DNA of 33,155 nt from Senegalia massiliensis (GTDB lineage: Bacteria; Bacillota; Clostridia; Tissierellales; SIT17): assembly GCF_009911265.1 (NCBI RefSeq), contig NZ_QXXA01000020.1:1-33155 (forward strand), in the 5' to 3' direction. Of the stretch, positions 3,927 through 5,049 are shown one piece after another (the first letter of the stretch is position 1; the number at the start of each line of letters is the position of its first letter). The notes beneath the pieces were generated by a model, which searched no databases, was not told where the DNA came from, and saw only the letters and a program-made list of their open reading frames with translations. The translations under genes were made by a program, and so were the position numbers.

Positions 3927-3939
3927 CAGTTATGTTATC

Positions 3940-3985
3940 CTATAAGTTTTTTATCTTATAGTTCTATAGCTTGAATTTGCTATAG
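3940..3985 (-). other. two hairpins at the 3' end of the gyrA intron (P9-like)
   Basis: Minus-strand RNA would fold GCTATAG/CTATAGC (plus 3964-3970 with 3979-3985) and then CTATAAG/CTTATAG (plus 3940-3946 with 3955-3961), just before the terminal G of the intron. Small helices in this place correspond to P9-type peripheral elements of group I introns. Confidence 0.6.
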
Positions 3986-4163
3986 CTCAGCATACCTTTT
4001 TACGTAAATATTTAACTACAACGTAGAACGGCCTCTTGGAAGAATTATAGTCTGTTTAACACCAGGATCATCTTCTATGCGTTGCCCCTGACCAGAGTAT
4101 TATCTCTAGCCTTCGGTTCTGATTCCCATCTCAGGGTTCCAGCTTAATTCCGTTCTAATATAC

Positions 4164-4983
4164 TTAATTCTCCAGTAGTTTTGAATTAAGTCGGCAAAAA
4201 TTTTGATATTTCTCATGTTTTCTATTTAGATAAATATTTGCATCACTATATAAATAATTTAATAATTTTATTATCTCTTTTTTTGAAGTTATTCTATAAC
4301 GATATATAGATTTATATTTTTTTATATTGTAATTCTTCACATTACTATTTTCTTCAGCTATTTTCTTAATATATTTTAAAATATTAATTCCCATTCCAAA
4401 TCCTAATTCAGCACAGTTATTATTCCAAGATAACCATCCATCTCCATCAAATATTCCTCTAATATAATGAGGTACTAAATTACTATTAAGTTCATAATAT
4501 CTTTCTTTTTTGCTTTTATGATTATCTATATAATGAAACATTAAATCGTTATATATTTTATGAGAATGAATTATTATCCTTGCTGATTCATATTTTTTAT
4601 TTTTTATTTTTTAATTTTCGTTTTTCAATATTAATAGGATGATTAGAACTAATACTTTTCTTAAATTTATTTAAATGTTTAATATCTTCTATTGATAATC
4701 CAATACTTAAAATATTAGTATTTTGATGTAAACTACCATCCGCTAATATAAAACCTAACCAATACGCTTTTTCTTCAGTATCAATAACTTCAAAATAATT
4801 ATCTTGGCATTTATATTTTACTCTTCTATCTTCATATATATTTAACATTTTAAGTTTATTAGCTAAAGTTTCTCTATGAATACCAAATTTTTTAGCACAA
4901 ACTGTAATTGATATATTATTTTCATTAAAATAATTCGCAGCTTGTAATATAGTTAATGCTTTTTTTGAGTTTATAGAATACAT
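4164..4983 (-). pseudogene. intron-encoded LAGLIDADG homing endonuclease, frame broken by a 7-bp repeat
   Basis: Two adjacent reading frames make one endonuclease. The first (4597-4983, ATG at 4983 with GGGAGG upstream) has an N-terminal helix-turn-helix (about residues 8-48) and the first LAGLIDADG motif LGFILADGS (76-84, acidic Asp82). It ends at a TAA inside TAAAAAA repeated three times (4593-4613). The second (to 4164) continues in the +1 frame with YESARIIIHSHKIYND and the second motif YIRGIFDGDGWL. Removing one 7-nt copy rejoins them as 270 residues through KLKNKKYESAR. Such enzymes cut intronless alleles and spread the intron. As sequenced only half-proteins would be made, unless slippage occurs or the base count is wrong. 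Confidence 0.85.
4593..4613 (-). repeat. 3 x 7-bp tandem repeat (TAAAAAA) in the homing endonuclease gene
   Basis: Plus strand TTTTTTA occurs three times without interruption. Each unit changes the frame by one base; two copies keep the endonuclease frame open, three copies break it. This is a typical slipped-strand expansion site. Confidence 0.9.
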
Positions 4984-5049
4984 TATAAATCCTCCCAATG
5001 TATCATCCTCAATTAATTCTATATCAAAATATTATGAGAATATCTATTT

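Follow-up and report, generated by a model that had tools for sequence, protein, structure and literature searches.

A predicted self-splicing group I intron of subgroup IA in the chromosomal gyrA gene of Senegalia massiliensis

The window analysed here, a stretch of 33,155 nucleotides from Senegalia massiliensis, covers the chromosomal dnaA-dnaN-recF-gyrB-gyrA region; the names of the first four genes are assigned from their sequences. On the minus strand, gyrA is split into 107 and 705 codons by an insert of 1123 nt (5049-3927; Table 1). An earlier, sequence-only reading of this DNA had described this division, and it proved exact to the nucleotide: the joined exons encode 812 residues without an internal stop and restore GHG|NFGS, within a junction that reads VDGHG|NFGSVDGD. 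Pfam recognises DNA_topoisoIV on exon 1 (8.7e-39, 5047-5370) and on exon 2 (9.3e-124), the latter together with DNA_gyraseA_C. The insert starts with AAATAG, finishes with ATAACTG and sits exactly between the codons GGT and AAC, so that the exon ends in T at 5050 and the insert in G at 3927, the U and the G to which the same reading had drawn attention; the in-frame stop that it had seen after exon 1 is the TAG at 5046-5044, one codon past the exon. The 15th residue of exon 2 is the tyrosine of AAMRYTE, which we take to be the catalytic tyrosine of GyrA.

Table 1. Window coordinates of the split gyrA gene, its insert and the elements assigned within it.
Feature	Position	Strand	Remarks
gyrA exon 1	5050-5370	minus	321 nt, 107 codons; ends VDGHG; last base T/U
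gyrA exon 2	1809-3926	minus	2118 nt including stop, 705 codons; begins NFGSVDGD
Group I intron (predicted)	3927-5049	minus	1123 nt; last base G3927; subgroup IA (IA2-like); basis: empty site, model R2, covariation
P1, 5' strand	5047-5053	minus	exon UGGU 5053-5050 and intron AAA 5049-5047
Homing endonuclease gene (putative), 5' part	4597-4983	minus	ATG 4983, GGGAGG upstream; motif WLGFILADGS
AAAAAAT, three tandem copies (7-bp repeat)	4592-4612	minus	break point of the endonuclease frame
Homing endonuclease gene (putative), 3' part, other frame	4164-4595	minus	motif IRGIFDGDGW; end overlaps guide sequence and P2
P1, 3' strand	4192-4198	minus	UUU 4198-4196 and internal guide sequence GCCG 4195-4192
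P2 hairpin, CUUAAUUC/GAAUUAAG	4163-4190	minus	4190-4183/4170-4163; 8 perfect pairs; between guide and P3
P3, 5' strand UAGAACGG	4150-4157	minus	pairs with 4031-4024
P4 enclosing P5	4119-4142	minus	P4 4142-4139/4122-4119; P5 4136-4134/4127-4125; covariation
P6 hairpin	4090-4111	minus	4110-4104/4097-4091; G4111-C4090 the eighth pair
P7, 5' strand GCAUA (R element)	4076-4080	minus	guanosine-binding helix; pairs with UAUGC 3994-3990
P7.1 enclosing P7.2	4039-4075	minus	P7.1 4075-4071/4043-4039; P7.2 4065-4063/4054-4052; mark of subgroup IA
P3, 3' strand CCGUUCUA	4024-4031	minus	A4024 could pair in P3 or P8
P8 hairpin	4002-4024	minus	ACGU 4024-4021/ACGU 4005-4002
P7, 3' strand UAUGC (S element)	3990-3994	minus	pairs with GCAUA 4080-4076
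P9 hairpins	3940-3985	minus	CUAUAGC/GCUAUAG 3985-3979/3970-3964; terminal CUAUAAG..AUAAAAA..CUUAUAG 3961-3955/3946-3940

A genome of the same genus (G160) supplies the empty site. Its gyrA is uninterrupted, with an 812-aa frame found at 100% identity over 200 query residues, and compared with the joined exons of the window it shows 53 differences in 2100 nt, with no gap overall and neither insertion nor deletion of a base at the junction, where GGTAAT stands for the window's GGT|AAC. Over 700 joined codons the two genes differ by 46 synonymous and 6 nonsynonymous codons, and by this measure gyrA is conserved and alive. An intact second gyrA, which the sequence-only reading had said would make this copy a pseudogene, was looked for in the genome; neither a second GyrA nor a ParC was detected, the exon-2 region of GyrA having its sole match at E<=0.001 in the split gene itself. 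Among the genomes of the order, 246 of 249 match GyrA at E<=1e-30; the best E-value is 7.3e-69 for the split gene and at most 4.7e-84 for each of the other 245, in which one stretch must therefore cross residue 107, the uninterrupted state being deduced, for the lower-ranked matches, from the E-value and not from coordinates. A sample of the phylum, which overlaps that of the order, gave matches at E<=1e-15 in 381 of 398 genomes; the other 380 all reach 2.3e-86 or less, except one (G832, 1.1e-48), where the match is a single piece over residues 8-199. Twenty genomes (3 + 17) had no GyrA match, and none of the ten that we rechecked at E<=0.01 gave one.

The 3' part of the insert can be folded into the core of a group I intron, with P3 to P8, P7.1 and P7.2, and with P3 and P7 crossing. 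We evaluated this structure (P3, P4, P5, P6, P7, P7.1, P7.2 and P8) on 20 cores of one family, aligned by sequence alone. In this alignment 90.0% of 758 cells are paired and 26 of 40 pairs are changed on both sides. The covariation score is 0.552, against 0.158 for shuffled alignments (0 of 500 reach it) and at most 0.127 with the partners slid; because part of the structure was read from the window, its percentage paired is favoured over that of the slid versions, and the shuffles are free of that bias but ignore relatedness. P6 carries changes on both sides at all seven of its counted pairs, and P3 at seven of its eight counted columns, the outermost being unpaired in 17 of the 20 sequences. 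Support for P5 is weaker: two of its three pairs are open in 6 or 7 of the 20 rows. Changes on both sides are lacking in 14 of the 40 pairs counted: seven are invariant (among them all five of P7), two change on one side and five depart only by unpaired cells. In alignment A2 the register of P4 is off by one column in some rows, so that two P4 pairs count as unpaired in 6 of the 20 rows; leaving the window out and realigning mended P4 but displaced P3 in some rows, and this version was discarded. Two elements of the fold had been picked out by the sequence-only reading, and both are there: the 8-bp hairpin at 4111-4090 is P6 including its eighth pair, and the CCC/GGG stem is P5.

A family model built from these 20 cores, the window included (R1), scores the window at 156.6 bits and gave 74 matches at E<=1e-10 over 61 loci, among which the window ranks fifth; these matches, in an alignment fitted to the model, are 90.8% paired with a covariation score of 0.807. 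A second model (R2) was built without the window, from 17 matches in 16 other loci whose rows had been aligned by R1, which does include it. R2 finds the core of the window at 147.9 bits, with an E-value of 2.7e-28 in the whole genome, as the sole match there at E<=0.01. It also matches L143, L138, L145-L148, L010 and the phage gyrA loci L167-L170, all of them outside its rows, and finds nothing in L152, the region of the congener that contains its intronless gyrA. P7 was excluded from the base pairs of both models, and P7 nonetheless covaries: it reads GCAUA/UAUGC in 47 of the 74 matches, GCGUA/UACGC in 22, and GAGUA/UACUC and GCGCA/UGCGC in one each, so that all five pairs are kept in 71 matches with four different sequences, the remaining three pairing incompletely. 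P7.1 is 100% paired in both alignments. At the 3' end the window has two P9 hairpins, where several relatives are longer; the terminal one, around AUAAAAA, keeps 6 or 7 of its 7 pairs in 22 listed family members with differing sequences. By P7.1 and P7.2 the intron is of subgroup IA; in the available part of PMC4227781, P7.1/P7.2 hairpins and an extended P9 (P9.0, P9.1 and P9.2) are given as features of IA2, and the intron is probably an IA2 member.

The internal guide sequence, which the sequence-only reading had been unable to place, was sought by scanning the whole insert for a G able to pair with the splice-site U. The best pairing site in the insert is the GCCG of Table 1, followed by P2 and P3; the P1 helix that it would form has four exon pairs (two of them G-U) and three intron pairs, with the U-G pair at the splice site. 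When the 60 nt that precede P3 are shuffled, 159 of 2000 versions contain an equally good site, so the pairing is not significant alone. The support for this putative guide is comparative: GCCG comes out first both in the window and in the two gyrA introns of phage PBS1, at 38, 31 and 30 nt before P3 and in alignment, and it recurs after TTTGGT in two recA introns (L142 and L143). Inverted repeats are seen by eye at the place of P2 in the PBS1 introns too. P10, judged by eye, is weak, with two A-U pairs at most.

With the guide sequence located, the open reading frames of the insert fall in the loop of P1, between the 5' splice site and the guide. They represent a LAGLIDADG homing endonuclease gene in which both motifs (LGFILADG and IRGIFDGDG) are present, but in two frames and not in one. 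The 3' part matches Pfam LAGLIDADG_3 with 16.9 bits, under the cut-off of 22.5; the 5' part has tblastn matches to phage intron-encoded endonucleases and in viral loci, and relatives of the endonuclease include those encoded by introns of Staphylococcus phage recA. Both parts match, in order, single genes such as Goe21_00560 and phiR1-37 g328 and the 277-aa frame of a viral contig (L072); there are also viral loci in which the second part has its best match at another place. The endonuclease is presumably inactive and, since its gene is split by a frameshift, the phase of active homing has probably ended for this intron. Group I introns with an endonuclease gene in the loop of P1 include that of Physarum with I-PpoI, which resembles the window in having its open reading frame between the 5' splice site and the guide sequence, and differs from it in encoding a His-Cys box enzyme and in residing in nuclear rDNA. 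When 54 viral loci with a related endonuclease (out of 80 that were fetched as the best 80 of 215 viral endonuclease matches) were run with R1, a core was found at E<=1e-6 in 26; the order of endonuclease, then core, is common, because in 25 of these 26 the core falls within about 1 kb downstream. As a separate observation, a gyrB-like gene on a 224-kb viral contig (L072:878-4069; Pfam DNA_gyraseB 2.4e-39) is interrupted near its DAD motif by an insert that carries the above 277-aa endonuclease frame, related to that of the window; neither R1 nor Rfam recognises a ribozyme in this insert.

On the search with Rfam's Intron_gpI covariance model, which the sequence-only reading had proposed as its own test, the outcome went against it, with no match to the insert. 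Rfam 15 at the gathering score finds no family in the whole window, RF00028 and group II introns included, and on 3850-5120 there is again no match to RF00028 at E-values up to 10, nor to any group II family. The matches in that segment are poplar-1 (19.8 bits, E 0.08, cut-off 110.5) and CLRN1-AS1 (13.4 bits, E 1.5, cut-off 48). We read the missing match as a sensitivity gap of RF00028, because this model passes on only one of 18 loci of the intron family (L119, 59.1 bits) although all of them share the core motifs and helices. Among 17 viral loci carrying a related endonuclease it passes on four. RF00028 and R1 match the same place and strand in L119 and L051 and, weakly, in L038 (21.1 bits with R1), and RF00028 matches L040 and L045, but R1 at E<=0.1 does not. 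Since the family is nearly invisible to it, counts of group I introns made with the standard Rfam model are likely to be too low. The weak match to poplar-1 RNA (RF03041) lies over the intron core (3960-4122, minus strand) and is possibly chance, or may hint at parts common to poplar-1 and IA introns; as an identity for the insert, poplar-1 was dropped, with a score 90 bits under its cut-off.

Taking these lines together, we put at about 94% the probability that the insert is a self-splicing group I intron of subgroup IA, which arrived as a mobile intron and interrupts the only gyrA detected in this cell; that it is a group I intron, as the sequence-only reading had proposed, is supported by both structure and covariation. 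We infer that the intron splices and that it arrived by homing. In the proposed mechanism, P1 would form between the UGGU of exon 1 and the guide GCCG and would place a U-G pair at the splice site. P3-P8, in which P3 and P7 make a pseudoknot, together with P7.1/P7.2 and the P9 hairpins would constitute the core, and guanosine bound in its P7 would attack after the U; the freed U would in turn attack after the terminal G of the intron, which would join GGU to AAC and restore a GyrA of 812 aa. Ribosomes would be halted short of the core by the in-frame UAG that directly follows exon 1, and the LAGLIDADG endonuclease of the P1 loop may once have cut intronless gyrA at HG|NF. The predicted self-excision would make the cell's only detected GyrA/ParC-type protein depend on a ribozyme, at a site presumably near both the catalytic tyrosine of GyrA and its quinolone target region.

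Other explanations of the insert were weighed against this reading. One is that the ribozyme has decayed and that gyrase A is made as two assembling polypeptides, one of 107 residues plus one and the other of about 701 aa. Exon 1 does have its own stop, exon 2 has a GTG start at 3914 and the endonuclease is already broken, but no Shine-Dalgarno-like sequence is seen by eye at the usual distance before that GTG, the break falls inside a conserved motif, and the core helices are intact, with the window fifth of 74 matches and scoring 147.9 bits with the window-free model; we regard a split gyrase as quite unlikely. That the insertion is an assembly artefact or lies in a pseudogene copy is very unlikely: the genome is a draft of 53 contigs, but both junctions lie within one 33-kb contig beside gyrB, a related intron occupies the same position in phages, and gyrA is single-copy and conserved. 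A further candidate is an IStron, a group I intron fused to an IS transposase; according to the accessible part of PMC4227781, IStrons belong to IA2 and occur in Clostridia and Bacilli. However, the two insert frames given to Pfam yielded no recognised transposase or reverse transcriptase, both frames resemble LAGLIDADG endonucleases, and Rfam has no group II family match; an IStron or a group II intron is extremely unlikely. An intein or other protein-level splicing element, for which gyrA is a target (the part of PMC10638138 available describes a gyrA intein in Staphylococcus jumbo phages), has a probability close to nil, being refuted, unless read through, by stop codons, with a TAG one codon past exon 1, a frame that is not continuous with both exons and an endonuclease with its own ATG and ribosome site.

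The presence of a group I intron in a chromosomal gyrA, well supported by the comparisons above, has counterparts in phages, in which gyrA introns are not new. The gyrA of PBS1 (LC680884), like AR9 a jumbo phage of Bacillus, contains two R1 introns (114.2 and 108.1 bits), the second of which, at DAHG|NFGS and GGT|AAC, occupies the exact site of the window with the same guide GCCG. The stretch is identical in phage AR9 (KU878088, AR9_g044), where gyrA is annotated as a three-piece join. This PBS1/AR9 intron differs from that of the window in lying in a phage gene that has a further intron at the YHPHG site, in its length (358 nt, too short for an endonuclease gene) and in its core, which is 62.6% identical. 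The remark in the sequence-only reading that no gyrA case was well described thus needs correction for phages, given the AR9 join and its same-site intron; for chromosomes we found no such case in the literature. The gyrA introns of phages Goe21, phiR1-37 and BpSp are of the same family (122.4, 137.6 and 89.8 bits with R1) and are inserted about 32 codons earlier than that of the window, at the YHPHG site. In Goe21 (Goe21_00560) and phiR1-37 (g328) a single gene matching both endonuclease halves stands before the core, as in the window, and no endonuclease match was found in the BpSp gyrA intron. In our search, 2099 phage records had a GyrA-like match and interrupted genes are reported from the best 60 of each listing; further interrupted phage gyrA genes may exist.

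How the phage and chromosomal introns are related can be approached through their cores. The core of the window is 60.5-65.2% identical to those of the phage gyrA introns and up to 74.3% identical to those of other viral introns (L097), and in a tree of 74 cores, which are too short to date or direct a transfer, the window adjoins two viral contigs (L134 and L135, local support 0.80) and not the phage gyrA introns. A recent copy from the known gyrA phages seems unlikely, because the core of the window is nearer to introns of other viral contigs. A shared homing history and an independent arrival at a good site are both possible. A search of viral sequences for the pattern of the intron's 3' end joined to NFG codons found none. 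We entertain as a tentative idea, rather improbable on present comparisons, that the HG|NFG junction is a homing site common to bacterial chromosomes and jumbo phages and that the intron crossed between phage and host gyrA. If so, the chromosomal copy would be the trace of a phage-type intron invading an essential host gene, and the intron could have protected host gyrA from being cut by a phage endonuclease. Intron traffic from phage to host is made testable by the intron that jumbo phages have at this site. Two features of the phage loci deserve separate mention. The two introns of PBS1 gyrA (L167:3172-3979) are similar, lie 96 coding bases apart and have the same guide sequence, as if a single intron had inserted a copy of itself at another GGU within gyrA. 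In Yersinia phage phiR1-37 (L169), the annotation divides gyrase A into two genes, on either side of a gene that has no name; this interval is an R1 intron with an endonuclease-like gene.

Our search of the literature, mainly open-access, found no report of a gyrA intron in a bacterial chromosome. In the part of PMC3984707 available, flagellin, recA and nrdE are the bacterial protein genes that host group I introns, such introns are rarer in protein genes of bacteria than in genes for rRNA and tRNA, and no word begins with gyr. Over half of viral group I introns are IA2 according to PMC11835236, whose accessible portion likewise has no word beginning with gyr. Gyrase A of AR9 is listed as gp044 in PMC5312081, the available part of which does not mention an intron in it; the corresponding part of PMC10638138 states that Rfam found no introns in the Staphylococcus jumbo phages with the gyrA intein, and that of PMC12908238 names no gyrase or topoisomerase. 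The interest of the window lies in the host gene, in a site held in common with jumbo phages and in a family missed by the standard model. An automatic annotation pipeline would be apt to list this gyrA as a pair of broken genes.

The intron family extends to other genes and genomes. It was found by searching the DNA of the order with the ribozyme (E<=1), which gave matches in 223 of 249 genomes, mostly A+T-rich noise by length and composition. One weak DNA match, in the nrdD gene of L010, is by its core a real relative, and three genomes with weak matches (G140, G133 and G181) were later shown to carry the family. L010 has ACGCATAGAAG..CTTCCAAGAG in common with the window, and this pattern occurs in 19 viral and 8 genome contigs, some of them duplicates (L141 duplicates L010). 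The P3 partners of the relatives were proposed by a script that always returns its best candidate, and were replaced by hand in L010, L127 and L143. R1 matches 7 of 391 genomes in a sample of the class and 9 of 248 in the order, the window's genome counting in both, and it has no match in the three congeners.

The host genes are varied. On the flanks of the introns Pfam recognises RecA (both sides in L142, upstream only in L139), NRDD (the 3' side of L010 = L141), a type IV secretion coupling protein (L157) and a terminase large subunit (L160); L156 has a weak TraG-like match under the cut-off and the flanks of L137 match no family, and RecA in L143 and L144 and a conjugation gene in L159 were named from their sequences only. 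The recA introns of Bacillales (Sediminibacillus L139, Litchfieldia L142, Evansella L143 and a Bacillus sp. MAG, L144) have the four top R1 scores, 158.1-169.7 bits; L139, L142 and L144 were included in R1 and L143 was not. Their exon reads ..TTTGGT and their cores are 67-68% identical to that of the window, from which they differ in host gene. Group I introns of recA and nrdE have been reported in Bacillus (PMC3984707, in the part available). Three of these genomes (L142, L143 and L144) have a cluster of two or three R1 cores around recA on a single strand, which suggests several introns within one recA gene. In L137, L156, L157 and L159, copies lie in genes that resemble the conjugation ATPases of Firmicutes, with a firm Pfam match for L157 only; conjugative elements, besides phages, may spread the intron family. 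Finally, in a MAG labelled uncultured Clostridium (L138), a family intron with a LAGLIDADG-like frame of 317 residues before its core lies in an AAA ATPase gene with a ClpB-type C-terminal domain.
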